NCBI GenBank assembly: GCA_020722945.1
Contig: DYJV01000005.1
Location: 34,094 to 53,665 of the forward strand
From: Candidatus Methylomirabilis sp.
GTDB lineage: Bacteria > DYJV01
DNA length: 19,572 nucleotides
Direction of reading: 5' to 3'
Part shown: in pieces, positions 1,333 to 19,507 of the stretch
How the letters are laid out: each line of letters begins with the position of its first letter
Position numbering within the stretch: the stretch's first letter is position 1
Notes under the pieces: generated by a model
The model's input: the letters and a program-made list of their open reading frames with translations, nothing else
The model's database searches: none
What the model was told of the DNA's origin: nothing
Translations under genes and position numbers: made by a program

Positions 1333-2637
1333 CTACTTCTTTTTAAAGAATAATTTTATAGGAACACCCTCAAAACCGAAGTTGCTCCTGAGTTGATTCT
1401 CGATGTAATTTTTGTAGGAATCTTTTATATCGTCAGGGAAATTGCAGAATAGTATGAATTTGGGAGGGTTAACTTCTGCCTGAGTCATAAATTTAATTTT
1501 CAACTGCTTCCCTCTGATAACAGGGTGTGAATGTTTTTTGCTAATATTTTCAAGAAATTTATTTAGAGCTGCTGTGGGGACTCGAGTCTGTTGGTTTCTG
1601 TAGATTCTTTTAGAAAGATCAAGTATTTTATTTACATTTTCACCTGTCATTGCTGAAATTTTGACTACAGGTGCATAATTGATAAATTGGAGATGCTCTT
1701 TTACAAGGGCAGTGTATCGTTTCTCGTCGAGACCCTGTCCTTTAAATTTGTCCCATTTATTAAAAACTATTATTGCACCTTTTCCACGATTATTTATAAG
1801 ATTTGTAATACTTTTATCTTGATGAGTAGCACCCTCCATTGCGTCGTGCATTACCACCAAAACATCGCTTCTCTCTATAGTTGTAATTGAGCGGATTACA
1901 GATATCTTTTCAAGGTCAAAACTTATCCTGCTTTTTCTCCTTATCCCTGCTGTGTCAATAAGAGTAAAATTACTATTTTTGTAGTGCAGCATTGTATCTA
2001 CTGAATCCCTTGTTGTCCCCGGAACATCTGATACAATAACTCTCTCATAACCGAGAAGTTTATTGACAAGTGAAGATTTCCCTACATTGGGTCTTCCGAG
2101 TATACCTATTTTTATTGAGTCAGCTATCTCTGGTGTCTCTCTATTTTCAGGGAGATAGCTTTTAATTAAATTAAAAAGTTTATCGAAGCCTCTTTTTTGT
2201 GTGGCAGATAAGGTTATGATATTACTACCTAATTTGAAAAAGTCAGCCATAAGAGTTTCATCTTTGGGAGTGTCAGCTTTATTGAGAATTACAATAAAAT
2301 TTTTGTTACTCTTCCTTAAAAAATCTATAAGCTCAATATCAGTAGAATTAAGCTCTGTTTTTATATCGAGTATTGCCAAAACCAGCTCTGACTCCTCTAT
2401 TGCAATTAGAGCTTGTTTCTTGACTAATTTTTCGATCTCTTCATTTTCATCCAAAACAAAACCACCGGTATCAACAAGAATGAATTTTTGCCCATCTATT
2501 TTAGCTGTTTCATAAATTCTATCCCTTGTAACACCTGAATAATCGTATATGATTGCTCTGTTCTGTTTTGTAATGGCATTGAATATGGTTGATTTCCCAA
2601 CATTAGGTTTACCAACTATTGATACAACAGGTAACAT
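1333..2637 (-). CDS. der: Ribosome-assembly GTPase Der (EngA)
   Basis: A 434-residue protein with two tandem GTPase domains, the defining feature of Der/EngA, which acts in late assembly of the 50S ribosomal subunit. Domain 1 has its P-loop GKPNVGKS at residues 9-16, then DTGGF (G3) and NKAD (G4). Domain 2 has its P-loop GRPNVGKS at residues 181-188, then DTAGI and NKWD. The last roughly 80 residues form the KH-like domain that contacts rRNA (region around HPVIRGKQLKIKF through NFGFEGVPIKLFF). Length is typical of the family. The ATG at 2637 follows AAGGAG with a 5-base spacer. Upstream is a candidate extended -10 promoter (2733-2741), so the gene is probably transcribed apart from ppdK, which ends in a terminator. 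No clear terminator follows it. Confidence 0.97.
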   Translation of the reverse strand: MLPVVSIVGKPNVGKSTIFNAITKQNRAIIYDYSGVTRDRIYETAKIDGQKFILVDTGGFVLDENEEIEKLVKKQALIAIEESELVLAILDIKTELNSTDIELIDFLRKSNKNFIVILNKADTPKDETLMADFFKLGSNIITLSATQKRGFDKLFNLIKSYLPENRETPEIADSIKIGILGRPNVGKSSLVNKLLGYERVIVSDVPGTTRDSVDTMLHYKNSNFTLIDTAGIRRKSRISFDLEKISVIRSITTIERSDVLVVMHDAMEGATHQDKSITNLINNRGKGAIIVFNKWDKFKGQGLDEKRYTALVKEHLQFINYAPVVKISAMTGENVNKILDLSKRIYRNQQTRVPTAALNKFLENISKKHSHPVIRGKQLKIKFMTQAEVNPPKFILFCNFPDDIKDSYKNYIENQLRSNFGFEGVPIKLFFKKK

Positions 2638-2732
2638 TGTAACTCCTTATTTTTGATAGCAGCTAAAGATTATTTCATAAAAAATAACTATTGTTTATAA
2701 AGTTGATCACTTATGCTGATTTATTTTGTGGC

Positions 2733-2741
2733 ATTATATCA
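2733..2741 (-). promoter_or_regulatory. Candidate extended -10 promoter upstream of der
   Basis: The minus strand reads TGATATAAT here, a perfect TATAAT with the TG dinucleotide one base upstream that defines an extended -10 element. No good -35 hexamer lies 15-19 bases upstream, which is tolerated by extended -10 promoters. Transcription would start near 2726, giving a leader of about 90 bases before der. Confidence 0.45.
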
Positions 2742-2964
2742 GGTTTTAAAAAAATAGATAGTAAAATAAATTGATTATCACAATTATCATTTTTTAAAAT
2801 CTAAACTATTTTTTTAGTAGTAGTTTAACTACTCTTATCGTATTGGCAAATAAAGTGAGTTAAAAAATTAATGTTTTAGTAGAATTAATTTGTAAATATA
2901 AATATTTAAACAGTTATTAAAGTGGTGAAGTGCATAACCCTACAAATTTATAAGCCTTTTATAT

Positions 2965-3001
2965 GATAAAAATAGAAAAGAAGGTTGCCAAAAAGCAACC
3001 T
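2965..3001 (-). terminator. Rho-independent terminator of ppdK
   Basis: On the minus strand AGGTTGC (3001-2995) pairs perfectly with GCAACCT (2988-2982) around a six-base loop, followed by the T-rich run TCTTTTCTATTTTT. It starts about 25 bases after the ppdK stop codon and closes the long minus-strand gene run. Confidence 0.85.
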
Positions 3002-3026
3002 CCTTTGATTTGTAACATTAATTGGA

Positions 3027-5687
3027 CTAACTACTTGAAATTACAGACTGTGCTGCTGCTAATCGTGCAATAGGCACTCTGTATGGGGAGCAGCTTACAT
3101 AATTTAGTTTGATTTTGTGGCAAAATGCAATAGATTCAGGGTCTCCACCATGCTCGCCACAGATCCCAACTTTAAGATCATCTCTTGTTGCTCTCCCCTT
3201 TAAAACTGCCATCTCTATAAGCTTCCCTACACCCTCAACATCGAGTGTTACAAAAGGATCTTTTGGTAGAAGTTTCTTCTCTACATACTCTTTTAAAAAT
3301 TTACCAGCATCATCTCTTGAAAAACCAAATGTTGTCTGGGTAAGATCATTTGTCCCAAAAGAGAAGAACTGAGCTGATTCTGCTATTTTGTCTGCAATGA
3401 TTGCGGCTCTTGGAAGTTCTATCATTGTCCCTATCTTGTATTCAACTTTTCTTCCAGTTTTACTCATAACATCTTCCGCAGTTGCAATAGTCATAGTTTT
3501 TAATACTTCAAGCTCACTTGATATACCTACAAGTGGGATCATTATTTCAGGATATACAAAAAATCCCTCTTTTGCACATTCACAAGCAGCTTCAATTATT
3601 GCTCTAACCTGCATTTCATAAATTTCGGGATAAGTGATGCCAAGCCTGCAGCCACGATGTCCCAACATTGGATTAAACTCGTGGAGCTGTTCAGCAAGCT
3701 CTTTTATCTTCTCAACTGTAGTCCCCATACTTTTTGCAACTTGCTTCATTTCGTTGGGCTCTTTTGGTAAAAATTCATGAAGTGGCGGATCAAGTAATCG
3801 TATTGTAACAGGAAGTCCGTCCATCTCTTTGAAGATGCCTTTAAAATCCTCTTTTTGGTAAGGTTTTATCTTAGCAAGAGCTTTTTCTCTATCCTTTTTG
3901 GTTTCGGAGAGCATCATCTCACGGACAGCAAGTATCCTATCCTCTTGAAAAAACATATGCTCTGTTCTGCAAAGACCTATCCCTTCTGCACCAAATTTTC
4001 TTGCGATTTTAGCATCTATAGGGGTGTCAGCATTTGCCCTAACTCCTAATACTCTGATATCATCAACCCATTTCATAAATTCACCAAATTCACCTGTAAA
4101 TTCAGGCTGAATTGTAGGAACAAGACCATCTATTACAAAGCCTCCTGTTCCGTCAAGGGTGATAAAATCTCCCTTTTTGTAAATTTTGTTATCTATTTTC
4201 ATTGTTCCAATCTTGTAATCTATCAAAAGAGTGCTGCAACCTGATACACAACATTTCCCCATCCCTCGTGCAACAACAGCAGCGTGAGAAGTCATCCCTC
4301 CTCGAGCAGTCAGTATGCCTTCGGCAGCATTCATTCCATGTATATCTTCAGGTGAGGTTTCAATCCTGACTAAAATAACCTTCTCCCCTTTTGCAGCAAG
4401 CTCTTCTGCTTCATCTGCACTAAAAACTATTTTCCCTGAAGCAGCTCCCGGTGAAGCAGGAAGTCCCCTTGCCACAATATTTTTATCTGCTTTTGGATCG
4501 AGCATTGGGTGAAGAAGTTGATCGATCTGTGATGTTTGTATTCTCATTATTGCCTGATTTTTGGTTATAAGCTCCTCTTTTACCATATTGACAGCTATCT
4601 TTATCGCTGCATTAGCGGTTCTTTTTCCATTCCTTGTTTGTAGCATCCACAACTTATCTCTTTCGATAGTAAACTCAATATCTTGCATATCTTTGTAGTG
4701 GTTTTCAAGTTTATTGTAGATATTGACAAGTTCTTTATAACATTTTGGCATAAGTGCTTCCAGAGTAGGTAAATCTTTATTTTCATTGTTTTTGGAGGAT
4801 TCGTTGATAGGGTTGGGTGTCCTTATACCTGCTACAACATCTTCACCTTGAGCATTTATGAGAAATTCACCAAAGAATTTTTTGTCACCTGTTGCAGGGT
4901 CCCTCGTAAAAGCAACACCAGTTGCAGAATCATCTCCAATATTTCCAAAAACCATAGATTGAACATTAACTGCTGTCCCCCATTCATCAGGAATATTGTT
5001 GAGCTTTCTGTAAGTTATGGCCCGCTGATTATTCCACGATCTAAATACTGCTCCGATAGCTTCCCAAAGCTGTTTTTCTGGACTTTGAGGAAAAGTTTCC
5101 CCTGTAACCTCTTTATATTTCTTCTTAAGAGTGTTAACCAAATTTTTTAAATCCTCAGAAGTAAGATCTGTATCAAGCTTTACCCCTCTCTTTTCCTTTA
5201 TCTCTTCAAGAGGGTGCTCAAGTTTATCAGAGTCTATACTTTTTACAACATTTCCATACATCTGAATAAATCTTCTGTAACTATCGTAAGCAAATCTCTC
5301 ATTGCCTGATAATTTTGCAAGACCTTTGACAGCTTCATCATTTAATCCAAGGTTTAGAATTGTATCCATCATCCCCGGCATAGAAGCTCTTGCTCCTGAA
5401 CGGACAGAGAATAAAAGTGGATTGTCGCTACTGCCAAATTTCTTCCCTGTTATCTCTTCAATTTTCCTAATATTTTCGAGAATTTCTGCTTTCAAGGTAT
5501 CAGGGTAATTTTTGTTGTGTTGGTAATAGTATATACAAACTTCTGTTGTGATGGTAAATCCTGGAGGAACCGGGATACCAAGATTGGTCATTTCTGCAAG
5601 ATTTGCACCTTTTCCCCCGAGAAGATCTTTCATTTCACCAAAACCATCTGCTTTGGTGCCCCCAAAAAAATATACAAACTTAGCCAT
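3027..5687 (-). CDS. ppdK: Pyruvate, phosphate dikinase
   Basis: An 886-residue cytoplasmic enzyme that interconverts pyruvate + ATP + Pi with phosphoenolpyruvate + AMP + PPi, feeding gluconeogenesis or acting in PPi-linked glycolysis. Domains in order: the ATP-grasp nucleotide-binding domain (about 1-390; opening FGGTKADGFGEMKDLLGGKGANLAEM), the swivelling phosphohistidine domain with GGMTSHAAVVARGMGK and catalytic His468, and the C-terminal PEP/pyruvate TIM barrel (about 540-880) with GLCRTEHMFF, GHRGCRLG, SFGTNDLTQ and CGEHGGDP, whose Cys843 is the expected acid/base residue. Length matches the family, and no key residue is missing. The ATG at 5687 follows GGGGGA. The gene lies 69 bases after merR and ends in a terminator. 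No PPDK regulatory kinase gene is adjacent. Confidence 0.97.
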   Translation of the reverse strand: MAKFVYFFGGTKADGFGEMKDLLGGKGANLAEMTNLGIPVPPGFTITTEVCIYYYQHNKNYPDTLKAEILENIRKIEEITGKKFGSSDNPLLFSVRSGARASMPGMMDTILNLGLNDEAVKGLAKLSGNERFAYDSYRRFIQMYGNVVKSIDSDKLEHPLEEIKEKRGVKLDTDLTSEDLKNLVNTLKKKYKEVTGETFPQSPEKQLWEAIGAVFRSWNNQRAITYRKLNNIPDEWGTAVNVQSMVFGNIGDDSATGVAFTRDPATGDKKFFGEFLINAQGEDVVAGIRTPNPINESSKNNENKDLPTLEALMPKCYKELVNIYNKLENHYKDMQDIEFTIERDKLWMLQTRNGKRTANAAIKIAVNMVKEELITKNQAIMRIQTSQIDQLLHPMLDPKADKNIVARGLPASPGAASGKIVFSADEAEELAAKGEKVILVRIETSPEDIHGMNAAEGILTARGGMTSHAAVVARGMGKCCVSGCSTLLIDYKIGTMKIDNKIYKKGDFITLDGTGGFVIDGLVPTIQPEFTGEFGEFMKWVDDIRVLGVRANADTPIDAKIARKFGAEGIGLCRTEHMFFQEDRILAVREMMLSETKKDREKALAKIKPYQKEDFKGIFKEMDGLPVTIRLLDPPLHEFLPKEPNEMKQVAKSMGTTVEKIKELAEQLHEFNPMLGHRGCRLGITYPEIYEMQVRAIIEAACECAKEGFFVYPEIMIPLVGISSELEVLKTMTIATAEDVMSKTGRKVEYKIGTMIELPRAAIIADKIAESAQFFSFGTNDLTQTTFGFSRDDAGKFLKEYVEKKLLPKDPFVTLDVEGVGKLIEMAVLKGRATRDDLKVGICGEHGGDPESIAFCHKIKLNYVSCSPYRVPIARLAAAQSVISSS

Positions 5688-15802: not shown

Positions 15803-16570
15803 ATGGATTTTGCTTCTTTTATAGGTATATTGGCAGGTTTTGGCTTAATAATAGGAGCTATATTTACAAGTGGGAGTTTAAATGCTTTTATAGATATCCC
15901 CTCCTTTATAATTGTTTTTGGGGGGACGATTGGAGCATCACTTGTAAATTATACCTTTACTGAGTTTATCGATTTATTAAATGGTATCAATAAAATTCTT
16001 TTCAAGAATAAAGATGATTATTTAGAAAAGATACATCTTCTTGTCAATTTAGCGAGTAAATCTAGGAAAAATGGCATATTATCGATAGAGAGGGATGTTG
16101 AAGCTATTGACGATCCATTCATAAAAAAGGGACTTCAGATGCTTTTAGATGGAGCACCTTCAAAAGTTCTTGAAGAAGTTATTGATACTGAGCTCTCATT
16201 TACAAGTGAACGTCATAGGTTTGGGTATGAGATACTACTTTCTATGGGGAGTTATTCACCTGCGATGGGATTGATAGGGACGCTTATAGGTTTGGTCCAA
16301 ATGCTCCAAAACCTCAATGACCCCAAAACAATTGGTCCATCTATGTCAATAGCATTAATAACAACTTTCTATGGTGCAATTTTTGCAAATCTTCTTTTTA
16401 TGCCTCTTGCAGGGAAATTAAAGAGAAAAAGCCAGAAAGAGATACTTTTCAAGCAAATTTTAGGGATTGGTATCTGTTCAATTGCCAATGGTGAAAATCC
16501 CAAAATCCTCGAAAGTAGGCTTCTTGCTCTTTTTACCCAAAATCAGAGGGATAATTGGGACAAAAAATGA
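15803..16570 (+). CDS. motA: Flagellar stator protein MotA/PomA
   Basis: A 255-residue inner-membrane protein forming the pentameric ring of the stator, which couples ion flow to flagellar rotation. Four membrane segments lie near residues 4-22, 29-50, 144-165 and 177-200. Diagnostic stretches are IDIPSFIIVFGGTIGASLV, SPAMGLIGTLIGLVQML with the conserved proline, and DPKTIGPSMSIALITTFYGAIFAN. The cytoplasmic loop has SRKNGILSIERDVE, the charged region that contacts FliG. The pattern is PomA-like, but whether the ion is H+ or Na+ cannot be settled. I start it at ATG 15803, preceded by AAGGA with a 6-base spacer. A frame extension to TTG 15788 has no ribosome site and adds nothing conserved. 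Its stop overlaps the next start as ATGA. Confidence 0.95.
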   Translation: MDFASFIGILAGFGLIIGAIFTSGSLNAFIDIPSFIIVFGGTIGASLVNYTFTEFIDLLNGINKILFKNKDDYLEKIHLLVNLASKSRKNGILSIERDVEAIDDPFIKKGLQMLLDGAPSKVLEEVIDTELSFTSERHRFGYEILLSMGSYSPAMGLIGTLIGLVQMLQNLNDPKTIGPSMSIALITTFYGAIFANLLFMPLAGKLKRKSQKEILFKQILGIGICSIANGENPKILESRLLALFTQNQRDNWDKK

Positions 16571-17250
16571 TAAAATTGAAAGATAAAGGGACCCCACCAA
16601 ACAACTTTATACTCCTCTATACATGTTTTTCACTTCTTCTGCTCTCTTTCTTTATCTTTCTTGTTGCAAACTCAACAATCGATTCAGATAGAACAAAAGA
16701 AGCGATAGGTTCTCTGCTCGGATCATTTGGTCTGTTAAAAGGTGGAATATCTAATATTGGTGATCAGGAGAAGAAAAAATTAGGTATTGCATTAATACCT
16801 TTATCAAAAGAGAGTAATGTTGTTAGAGATCTTTATGAAATGGTAAAGCTATCAAAAAAAGATGACTCTATCGTGATAGAAATTAAAGATGGTGTGATAA
16901 ATCTAAAATTTGTGAGGAATTCTATCTTTAAAAGTAATGAAATAATTATATCCAATGAGTATGTTTCTGTTTTATCAAAATTGGTATACCGCATTAAGGA
17001 GCTTAAAAATCTTGATTTACAGATAGTATCGTTAAATAGTAATGATATATCTCTTGCAACAAGTAGGGGAGTTGCTATTACAAATTTTATGACAAGTAGT
17101 GATATAACATCAGATAGCATAAGCTGTTTCTCAAAATTGTCAGATAGTAATATCGAATTAATTATTGCAGCAAGAGGGCTTGTCTCTGAATCTAATACTT
17201 TGAAAGAAAATAGTATAAAAAAAGGGGATTTTATTTTTGAAGCTAAATAA
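16567..17250 (+). CDS. MotB-like protein lacking the ion-binding Asp
   Basis: A 227-residue protein with MotB layout: a short cytoplasmic tail, one membrane segment (about residues 14-37) and a periplasmic OmpA-like region (about 85-215). Aligned with MotB, the membrane segment FILLYTCFSLLLLSFFIFLV has Cys20 where the essential ion-binding Asp belongs, and no other acidic residue lies inside it. The OmpA-like part is degenerate: DGVINLKFVRNSIFKSNEIII resembles the family's first strand region and SLATSRGVAITNFM retains the LSxxRA arginine, but GHTD is missing. The ATG at 16567 overlaps the motA stop and follows GGGAC; a frame extension to TTG 16555 is less likely. Position directly after motA argues for a stator-related role, possibly paired with the next gene's product. 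Confidence 0.8.
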   Translation: MIKLKDKGTPPNNFILLYTCFSLLLLSFFIFLVANSTIDSDRTKEAIGSLLGSFGLLKGGISNIGDQEKKKLGIALIPLSKESNVVRDLYEMVKLSKKDDSIVIEIKDGVINLKFVRNSIFKSNEIIISNEYVSVLSKLVYRIKELKNLDLQIVSLNSNDISLATSRGVAITNFMTSSDITSDSISCFSKLSDSNIELIIAARGLVSESNTLKENSIKKGDFIFEAK

Positions 17251-17953
17251 ATCAAAATTCAATTATGAAGATAACCAAAATTCATTAGACTGGATGGTAT
17301 CATTTTCAGATGTAGTGACCCTCCTGATAACTTTCTTTGTCCTGATTATTTCTATGTCCTCAATGAACTATAAGTCAATCGGTAAATCTTTTGAATATCT
17401 ATCAGGGACTCCTCAGATAATGCTTAATAATGAAGAGGGCTCTAAATATCTCACTAATCTCCTTAAAGAAAATGATCTAAATCAAAGTGATCTACAACAG
17501 TTACTTGAGATAATGACACAACATAAACTCAAAGAAACTGAAGCTATAAATATCTTAAAACTTGAAAAAATTTTAGGGAAAAATTATAAAATATCTGATA
17601 ATGATATAGTTGTTGAGCTGGACACAAATACTATTTTTGATTATCTCAACTTGCAGCTAACATCTGTGGGAAGCAATCATTTAATTAAAATTAAGGATAT
17701 CCTCCCTTTATACAAAAAGGAGTGCAGAATAGAGACCTTTGCATCAGATTTTCCTATTAATACAAGGAAGATAAAGGATAACTTTGATTATACTTTAAAA
17801 ATAAATAAGAGTATTTACGATTTTCTCTTGAATAACGGTGTAAAAAAAGATAGAATTGAGATTATGGCGTGGGGAAATATGAGGATAAAGAAAAATATTA
17901 CAAAAATTACTTTTAAAGGTTTTTTAGAGATTGAAGAGAGTAGTAAATCTTGA
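17237..17953 (+). CDS. motB: Flagellar stator protein MotB, divergent
   Basis: A 238-residue stator B subunit. The single membrane segment WMVSFSDVVTLLITFFVLIIS (about residues 19-39) contains Asp25, the ion-binding residue of MotB. A plug-like stretch and linker follow, then an OmpA-like domain (about 125-232) meant to grip peptidoglycan. That domain is divergent: the usual GHTD reads FASD with the Asp kept, and the arginine of LSxxRA appears replaced by lysine in LKINKS, while NNGVKKDRIEIMAWGN fits the family. It starts at TTG 17237, overlapping the preceding gene by 14 bases, with GGGGA about 9 bases upstream. The next in-frame ATG would remove the cytoplasmic tail, so TTG is preferred. 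Confidence 0.88.
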   Translation: MKLNKSKFNYEDNQNSLDWMVSFSDVVTLLITFFVLIISMSSMNYKSIGKSFEYLSGTPQIMLNNEEGSKYLTNLLKENDLNQSDLQQLLEIMTQHKLKETEAINILKLEKILGKNYKISDNDIVVELDTNTIFDYLNLQLTSVGSNHLIKIKDILPLYKKECRIETFASDFPINTRKIKDNFDYTLKINKSIYDFLLNNGVKKDRIEIMAWGNMRIKKNITKITFKGFLEIEESSKS

Positions 17954-17979: not shown

Positions 17980-18501
17980 ATGGCAGCAAAAGATGAAACA
18001 CAGCAAGCTCCCCAAGAGGAGAAACCGAAGAAGAGTAAGCTCAAATTAATAATTATTATAGTATTGGCACTTCTGATATTAGGGGGTGGAGGATTTGCGG
18101 TATATATGCTATTTCTCAAAAAACCTGCTCCTGCTCCTTTGCCTGACAACCAAACTGCCCAAACCACAAAGGCTGCACCTATTGCAGATAAGAAAGAAGT
18201 TTTACCTCAAATAGAGATTGATCCATTTATTGTAAATCTTGCGGATCAAAATGCAAAGAGATATTTGAAAGTAAAAATAGCTCTTGAATTATCTAACAAA
18301 GATCTTGAAGAGGAGATAAAGAAGAGGACGCCTGAGATTCGTGATATGATAACTATGCTGCTTTCAAGCAAAACATATGCTGATGTAGCGACCTTTGATG
18401 GGAAGTTGGCGTTGAAAACTGCTCTTATTAGCAGGCTAAACTCTATTGTAACAAAGGGTAAAATAACCAACGTATTTTTTGTAGATTTTGTAGTTCAATA
18501 A
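17980..18501 (+). CDS. fliL: Flagellar basal-body protein FliL
   Basis: A 173-residue single-pass inner-membrane protein that forms a ring around the stator and supports its torque. A charged cytoplasmic tail rich in Lys, Glu and Gln (residues 1-22) is followed by one membrane helix (about 21-47, KLKLIIIIVLALLILGGGGF), a Pro/Ala-rich linker (about 50-75), and the periplasmic FliL domain (about 78-173). Typical marks are the opening IEIDPFIVNLAD, RYLKVKIALEL, the helix EEEIKKRTPEIRDMITMLLSSKT, and the C-terminal strand ITNVFFVDFVVQ. The ATG at 17980 follows AAAGGAGG. It lies 26 bases after motB and 22 before fliM, as in many flagellar operons. Confidence 0.96.
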   Translation: MAAKDETQQAPQEEKPKKSKLKLIIIIVLALLILGGGGFAVYMLFLKKPAPAPLPDNQTAQTTKAAPIADKKEVLPQIEIDPFIVNLADQNAKRYLKVKIALELSNKDLEEEIKKRTPEIRDMITMLLSSKTYADVATFDGKLALKTALISRLNSIVTKGKITNVFFVDFVVQ

Positions 18502-18523: not shown

Positions 18524-19507
18524 ATGACCCAAGTTTTATCTCAGGACGAGATTGATGCTCTTCTAAAAGGTATGTCTGGCGGAGAAATAGAGACAGAGCA
18601 GGAAGTAGCTGAAAGTCAAGACGGTATTATCACTTATGAGTTGACAAATCAAGAGAAGATCATAAGGGGGAGAATGCCTACTCTTGAAATAATAAATCAG
18701 AGATTCTCAAGGCTTTTTAGAGGGACGATCTCAAATATGTTAAGGAAAGTGGTAGATATATCTGCACTATCTCTTGATACAATAAAATTTGGTGAATTTC
18801 TCAAATCTTTACCTGTTCCTACGAGCCTTCACCTTTTTAGAATGAATCCCTTAAAAGGATTTTCACTAATAGTTATCGAGAGTAAGCTTGTTTTTGCATT
18901 AATAGATATATTTTTTGGTGGAGAGGGGAGCTCATCACTTAAAGTTGAAGGTAGAGACTTTACGGTTATTGAAGATAGAATCATCAAGAGAGTAATACTT
19001 GCTGCTCTTCAAGATTACTCTGAATCTTGGAAGCCAGTTTACCCTGTTGTCTTTGAATACTCACGTTCAGAGATGAATCCCCAATTTGCAACAATAGTTC
19101 CGCCTTCAGATGTTGTAATTGTTACATCATTTGAGATAGAGATTGAACAGGTAAGTGGAAATATCACAATATGTATACCATACGCCAATATTGAGCCTAT
19201 TAGGGATAAGCTTTATGCTGGTTTTCAAACAGAGAGACTTGAAGTTGATGCCAACTGGATAAAAAGATTAAAAAAGATAATAACTACCCTTGAAGTAAAC
19301 TCAATTGTAACATTGGGTGAGGTTGACATTACTATTGGTAAAATTTTACAACTTAAAGAGGGGGATATTATAAATCTTGAAAAGAAATCAACTTCACCTC
19401 TAATTCTTGAAGTTGAAGGCATCCCTAAATTTAAAGGGTTTGCAGGTATACTAAATAGCAATAAAGCTCTTAAAATTGTTGACAAAATATATAAACAGGA
19501 GTTTTAA
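18524..19507 (+). CDS. fliM: Flagellar motor switch protein FliM
   Basis: A 327-residue C-ring protein that sets rotation direction. Residues 4-13 (VLSQDEIDALL) are the N-terminal CheY-phosphate-binding motif, so the motor is probably controlled by chemotaxis. The CheC-like middle domain (about 45-235) includes LEIINQRFSRLFRGTISNML and GSSSLKVEGRDFTVIEDRII, and contacts FliG. The C-terminal SpoA domain (about 255-325, starting near TLEVNSIVTLGEVDITIGKILQL) joins FliN. Length is typical. The ATG at 18524 is preceded by TTGGAGG, and the stop lies two bases before the fliN start. Confidence 0.97.
   Translation: MTQVLSQDEIDALLKGMSGGEIETEQEVAESQDGIITYELTNQEKIIRGRMPTLEIINQRFSRLFRGTISNMLRKVVDISALSLDTIKFGEFLKSLPVPTSLHLFRMNPLKGFSLIVIESKLVFALIDIFFGGEGSSSLKVEGRDFTVIEDRIIKRVILAALQDYSESWKPVYPVVFEYSRSEMNPQFATIVPPSDVVIVTSFEIEIEQVSGNITICIPYANIEPIRDKLYAGFQTERLEVDANWIKRLKKIITTLEVNSIVTLGEVDITIGKILQLKEGDIINLEKKSTSPLILEVEGIPKFKGFAGILNSNKALKIVDKIYKQEF

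Follow-up and report, generated by a model that had tools for sequence, protein, structure and literature searches.

In the standard model of the flagellar stator, the ion-binding aspartates of two MotB subunits alternate, and each ion drives one 36-degree step of the MotA pentamer around the MotB dimer (PMC9389320, PMC11940233). Substitutions of this Asp other than Glu abolish function when they are present on both chains (PMC6677748, PMC6663468). Two described systems come closest to the arrangement reported here. The motA/motB1/motB2 operon of Aquifex aeolicus has one motA followed by two tandem motB genes, and chimeras of either one with E. coli MotB drive motility (PMC4525482). The AglRQS gliding motor of Myxococcus likewise has one MotA homologue and two MotB homologues, heterodimers of which have been discussed, but not shown (PMC9389320, PMC9120999). 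Here we describe a stator locus in a 19,572-nucleotide stretch of the genome of Candidatus Methylomirabilis sp. (assembly GCA_020722945.1, contig DYJV01000005.1, positions 34,094 to 53,665; hereafter the window), in which motA is followed by two overlapping genes of MotB type. The product of the first, motB1, has Cys in place of the ion-binding Asp, and the product of the second, motB2, retains the Asp. We denote Asp-less MotBs of such pairs MotB* and the adjoining Asp-bearing MotBs their partners. The two copies divide between them the motifs of an ordinary MotB, from which we infer an obligately heterodimeric stator, MotA5-MotB*-MotB, that has a single ion site; we put the probability of this reading at roughly 0.6.

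Results

The stator genes of the window comprise the following features:

15803..16570, + strand: motA, stator ring subunit of 255 amino acids (Pfam MotA_ExbB 1.6e-30, MotA_N 4.7e-9)
16567..17250, + strand: motB1 (MotB*), 227 amino acids, MotB paralogue without the ion-binding Asp (open reading frame call, profile alignment, AlphaFold2 (AF2) model)
16603..16674, + strand: MotB1 membrane helix, residues 13-36, without charged residues (sequence, AF2)
16624..16626, + strand: Cys20 codon TGT at the position of the ion-binding Asp (profile of MotB membrane segments; Cys kept in the related genome G001)
16702..16731, + strand: MotB1 plug motif AIGSLLGSFG, residues 46-55 (plug score 19.7)
16801..17178, + strand: MotB1 periplasmic domain of OmpA/MotB type, residues 79-204 (VIA-align Z 14-16 to MotS, PomB and MotB domains)
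17237..17953, + strand: motB2, 238 amino acids, MotB with the ion-binding Asp, TTG start at 17237 (Pfam MotB_plug 9e-12, OmpA 2e-4)
17309..17311, + strand: Asp25 codon GAT of MotB2, in the motif WMVSFSD (profile alignment, column counts)

The original prediction, made from the sequence of the window, had placed two overlapping genes of MotB layout behind motA, with Cys20 of the first opposite Asp25 of the second and with no acidic residue in the first membrane helix. The gene arrangement is confirmed by the coordinates: the ATG of motB1 (16567) overlaps the motA stop (16570) in an ATGA, and 14 bases are shared between the end of motB1 (17250) and the start of motB2. The two residues face each other without gaps in the alignment to the profile of MotB membrane segments, and the predicted MotB1 helix (NFILLYTCFSLLLLSFFIFLVANS) is free of acidic and, indeed, of any charged residues. 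Cys20 was considered as a lipoprotein cysteine and rejected by eye, because Tyr-Thr at -2/-1 does not form a lipobox and the hydrophobic helix runs on past the Cys. A sequencing error at the codon was also ruled out, given that G001 has Cys as well and that an independent Cys case (L118) lies in CP070660.1, a record titled chromosome.

MotA is an ordinary stator ring protein, its nearest solved structure being Vibrio PomA (E 7e-54). MotB1 matches Pfam MotB_plug at 1e-4 with 22.2 bits, slightly below the cut-off of 24, and rises above it, to 24.9 bits, in the whole-genome search. Its AF2 model (mean predicted local distance difference test score, pLDDT, of 72) has the membrane helix at 13-36, a separate plug helix at 40-54 and an OmpA-like domain, which aligns over 123-140 residues with those of MotS (Z 15.8), PomB (15.2) and Salmonella MotB (14.7). 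The plug score of MotB1 is inside the canonical range. MotB2 has the ion-binding Asp in a WxxTFSD-type motif and lacks a plug motif by score (-9.1, against medians of 19.6 in single MotBs and 12.9 in controls). In its AF2 model (mean pLDDT 81) one unbroken helix spans residues 16-53, in keeping with a lost plug, at low confidence in that region. The periplasmic peptidoglycan sites look eroded in both MotBs of the window; in MotB1, Arg167 is present and the Asp is not aligned.

The analysis covered two genomes of the window's phylum, that of the window and G001, a member of the same order (JALVYZ010000183.1). G001 has the same motA-motB1-motB2-fliL row, and its MotB1 has Cys at the same position despite 32% identity to MotB1 of the window. 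A scan of genome contigs with the single MotB1 protein found no relatives; a later profile search found 36 named loci, most of which comprise motA, an Asp-less MotB*, an Asp-bearing MotB and usually fliL. The exceptions are contigs that end early and one locus (L114) in which the partner is present and interrupted by Ns in the assembly, so that a pair without a partner was ruled out there. The bearers belong to at least five lineages: Thermodesulfobacteriota (Desulfobacterales/Deltaproteobacteria), Nitrospirota (Nitrospirae), Nitrospinota, Tectomicrobia and Zetaproteobacteria. From the phylum of genome G401, 297 genomes were drawn evenly, of which 33 passed the threshold. Of the 30 loci that were read, about 28 have a non-acidic MotB*; at L151 both copies of the pair have Asp, and at L152 there is a single Asp-bearing MotB. 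The pairing with MotA across related genomes, which the original prediction required, is found in G001, in most of the 36 named loci and in this draw. The Cys is kept in G001 and is not special otherwise: Ser is the commonest residue at the site, with Ala, Cys, Gly, Asn and Thr also occurring, and since relatives mostly have Ser or Ala, the common trait is the absence of the acid, not the Cys.

Several of these loci have peculiarities of their own. The first tandem copy of L151 (1489-2226, minus strand) still has its Asp (GWIVTYSDMVTLL), which may be the ancestral state or a reversion. At L111 of the Nitrospinota (1713-2414 and 2416-3387) the partner is unusually long, with 323 amino acids, and the MotB* plug is atypical, LQRGLKGSF. 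The MotB*s of Desulfobacterota (L096, L098-L100, L113, L114, L116-L119) have a conserved C-terminal tail, GxFTYKKFDFKIF, past the OmpA fold, possibly a docking strand, and their partners are without it. A second asymmetry concerns the peptidoglycan-contact Arg, which in many Desulfobacterota MotB*s is replaced by Met, Ser or Gln and is retained in the partner.

The two copies of the pair keep different parts of the MotB sequence. With the membrane-segment columns numbered from Asp as 0, partner MotBs have Trp(-6) and Asp(0) in 43/43 cases and Thr(-3) in 40/43. All three are lost in MotB*, where Leu(+6), Phe(+8), Phe(+9) and Leu(+12) are invariant or nearly so. The interface between the MotBs of E. 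coli, formed by A31, M34, M38, F41 and W45 (PMC10659934), corresponds to -1, +2, +6, +9 and +13 in this numbering; +6 and +9 are therefore the positions of M38 and F41, and the dimer-interface residues are retained in MotB*. They are kept in MotB2 as well. The plug motif AIGSLxGSFG is strong in MotB* and weak in the partner. This reciprocal difference had no place in the original prediction. When each copy is scored against ordinary MotBs, the ion-site score of the partner exceeds that of MotB* in 41/41 pairs, and the plug score of MotB* exceeds that of the partner in 40 of the 41. MotB1 and MotB2 of the window score -4.1 and 21.2 for the ion site and 19.7 and -9.1 for the plug. Pairs of reversed order, with the Asp copy first, display the same split.

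The association between pairing and loss of the acid was also seen in a family-wide sample, a Pfam MotB_plug search over 145 genomes, nearly one per family, that was not drawn with a MotB* query. Seven of its ten tandem MotB pairs have an Asp-less member (Cys, Cys, Ser, Ala, Ser, Asn, Thr), and the other three have Asp in both. Among the unpaired MotBs that could be scored, 48 of 49 have Asp; the lone exception has Asn, lies about 780 bases from a contig start and belongs to a genome of the Asp/Asn-pair type. The difference (7/10 against 1/49; Fisher p = 2.7e-6) makes acid loss a property of paired MotBs. A distinct tandem group (L068, L069, L168 and L169, in G339, G209, G068 and G073) keeps Asp in its first copy, the second having Asn or Thr; its motifs are WLTIYSDLMTN.. 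and W..PYGNLMT.., and it is possibly an independent case of the same split.

The pair is often the sole candidate stator set of its genome. Its members are the only MotB_plug matches in 11/20 bearer genomes. In a MotA_N search of 12 bearer genomes, 8 have exactly one match, adjoining the pair, and 4 have none at threshold; seven of these 8 belong to the 11 sole-pair genomes, and the eighth (G404) has three MotB_plug matches. As most of these genomes are incomplete metagenome bins, any single one could hide a second stator, though it is less likely that all of them do.

Between close relatives, the ratio of nonsynonymous to synonymous substitution rates (dN/dS) of MotB* is about 0.04-0.45, similar to that of MotB; judged by these ratios, MotB* is under purifying selection. 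In the full-length tree, first-position MotB*s, that of the window included, form one group (Shimodaira-Hasegawa-like approximate likelihood ratio test 94) and most partners another (86-89). Asp-less MotBs in second position and the Asn type fall elsewhere, which suggests separate origins of Asp-less MotBs, and some pairs (those of reversed gene order and the Asn type) may have arisen independently. A single origin of all Asp-less MotBs is not rejected by the approximately unbiased test (p = 0.098; p = 0.21 for the first-position and Asn types together), the window MotB sequences are long branches, and first-position MotB*s were not recovered as one clade in the tree of the periplasmic part.

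Downstream of the stator genes the window contains two further flagellar genes:

17980..18501, + strand: fliL, conserved with the stator genes (Pfam FliL 6e-26)
18524..19507, + strand: fliM (Pfam FliM 1.8e-69)

The fliL gene has the same place in nearly all related loci. Past the window, the contig (C104) continues with open reading frames for fliN, a fliO-like gene, fliP, fliQ and fliR. Because the genes from fliL to fliR come downstream, motA-motB1-motB2 is the stator set of the main flagellar operon. The genome of the window has two more ordinary motAB pairs with Asp, on contigs C137 (L002) and C128 (L001); just upstream of each lies a gene for what we take to be a polymer-forming or DUF342-type protein. 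A 3.2-kb contig of the same bin (C65) has a type II Zorya anti-phage system (ZorA, ZorB and ZorE by PADLOC; L005:78-3061), and this contig could be a contaminant (bin contamination 5.8%).

Discussion

A gene pair that is kept 1:1 and whose two products retain complementary motifs is most simply read as encoding a heterodimer. Of the roles that the original prediction had offered for MotB1, in a heterodimer with one ion site, as a dominant modulator or as an assembly factor, the first is the best supported. MotB1 and MotB2 would be the unlike halves of one MotB dimer in a MotA5-MotB1-MotB2 complex, the helix of MotB1 packing on that of MotB2 within the MotA ring through the normal dimer interface. 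MotB1 would contribute the plug helix and, having a neutral Cys at its site, would not carry an ion; the sole ion-binding Asp and the conserved half-site that surrounds it would come from MotB2. Since a neutral side chain is comparable to a site that is always loaded, it need not lock the ring. Such a unit would turn in five 72-degree steps per turn, with one ion each, instead of the ten 36-degree steps of the standard model, and with its single ion site both the ion cost of a turn and its maximal work would be roughly halved. Since substitution of the Asp on both chains, other than by Glu, abolishes function, no rotation is expected of MotB* homodimers that have Cys, Ser or Ala. Tentatively, and at odds somewhat below even, we extend this reading to a widespread class of obligately heterodimeric stators, in which ion carrying and the plugging of the unassembled channel would be divided between the subunits, with one ion site, 72-degree steps and about half the ions per turn.

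Several observations weigh against the heterodimer. Cells of E. coli, Borrelia and Vibrio are non-motile when the Asp is lost from both chains (PMC6663468, PMC6677748), and we found nothing in the open literature on the sufficiency of one Asp per MotB dimer. The MotB* genes were found with plug-containing queries, so the plug difference is partly a matter of ascertainment; compared with 13 ordinary MotBs of the same genomes the contrast is milder, with the plug score lower in partners (p = 0.016) and higher in MotB* (p = 0.026). The original prediction had counted homologues with Asp or Glu at the site as evidence against it, and some do exist: MotB*s of Zetaproteobacteria (Ghiorsea, Mariprofundus) have Glu, which could carry ions, and the first copy of L151 has Asp. 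Finally, with two other ordinary motAB pairs in the window genome, the motA-motB1-motB2 stator need not be the sole one.

Could MotB1 instead be a structural or assembly factor around the stator, a scaffold or an anchor like FliL or MotY, with its helix outside the MotA ring? The extra conserved tail (FTYKKFDFKIF) and the lost peptidoglycan-site Arg of the Desulfobacterota relatives would suit such a role, and flagellar motors are known to recruit inactivated paralogues as scaffold, PflC being an example (PMC12222027). We consider it unlikely, however, because Leu(+6), Phe(+8) and Phe(+9), which form the core of MotB helices inside MotA, are all present in the MotB1 helix, and because a motif that acts on MotA, the plug, has also been retained; the tail, moreover, is absent from MotB1 of the window.

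We also doubt that homodimers of MotB1 form a non-conducting stator with MotA5, which would compete with MotA5-MotB2 homodimers for motor slots or for MotA and so act as a brake or regulator. The retained dimer interface, plug and periplasmic fold make a MotB1 homodimer sterically plausible, and acid-free D24N stators still dock in the motors of Borrelia (PMC6663468). A brake, however, would not require the active partner to weaken its own plug motif, and a stoichiometric subunit is better suited both to the tandem, which is strictly 1:1 and tied to motA in several phyla, and to the 11/20 genomes in which MotB* is the only second MotB.

It is still less probable that both dimers form, two-site MotB2 homodimers and one-site MotB1-MotB2 heterodimers interchanging with conditions as two gears. 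The interface positions kept in MotB2 present no sequence bar to its homodimers, and some bearers have further ordinary stators, but with plug and ion site divided between the copies, a homodimer of MotB2 would be poorly plugged. That MotB1 is a decaying duplicate without function, as its long branch and eroded peptidoglycan-binding site might indicate, is contradicted by dN/dS well below 1 in relatives, by the Cys and reading frame kept in G001 and by the conservation of the pair across phyla, all of which bear out the earlier argument against simple decay.

A heterodimeric stator would matter beyond this locus. Models of 5:2 rotary motors assume two equivalent, alternating ion sites, and natural one-site stators would test that assumption directly, probing the sufficiency of one site, the step size, the ion cost and the need for a plug on both chains. 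Among the bearers are sulfate reducers, iron oxidisers and Nitrospirota. Several of these have little energy to live on, and a stator of low ion cost would make ecological sense in them. The same reading would explain genes that are now annotated simply as MotB or OmpA-family proteins.

Comparison with known systems

No description of Asp-less tandem MotBs was found in the open-access literature, absence from which is no proof of novelty. Tandem motB genes behind one motA are already known from Aquifex. The N-terminal and membrane segments of the Aquifex MotBs are 97% identical and have one differing residue, Gly20/Ser20 (PMC4525482), whereas the window pair differs throughout the ion site, the MotB1 segment having lost the Asp along with the surrounding motif. 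In AglRQS both AglQ and AglS are described with a conserved Asp, and the complex is a gliding motor, not a flagellar stator (PMC9389320, PMC9120999); MotB1 of the window is without the Asp, and its gene stands among fliL-fliR. The laboratory MotB mutants D32N, D24N and D22N (PMC6663468, PMC9389320) have, as MotB* does, a neutral residue for the acid in the membrane helix, but they are homodimeric and non-motile, while the natural MotB* adjoins an Asp-bearing partner. With the canonical stators MotA5MotB2 and PomA5PomB2 the window locus shares the MotA ring subunit, the single membrane helix, the plug, the OmpA-like domain and the setting in a flagellar operon; where these have two identical MotBs, each with its Asp, the window encodes two unlike subunits and one Asp.
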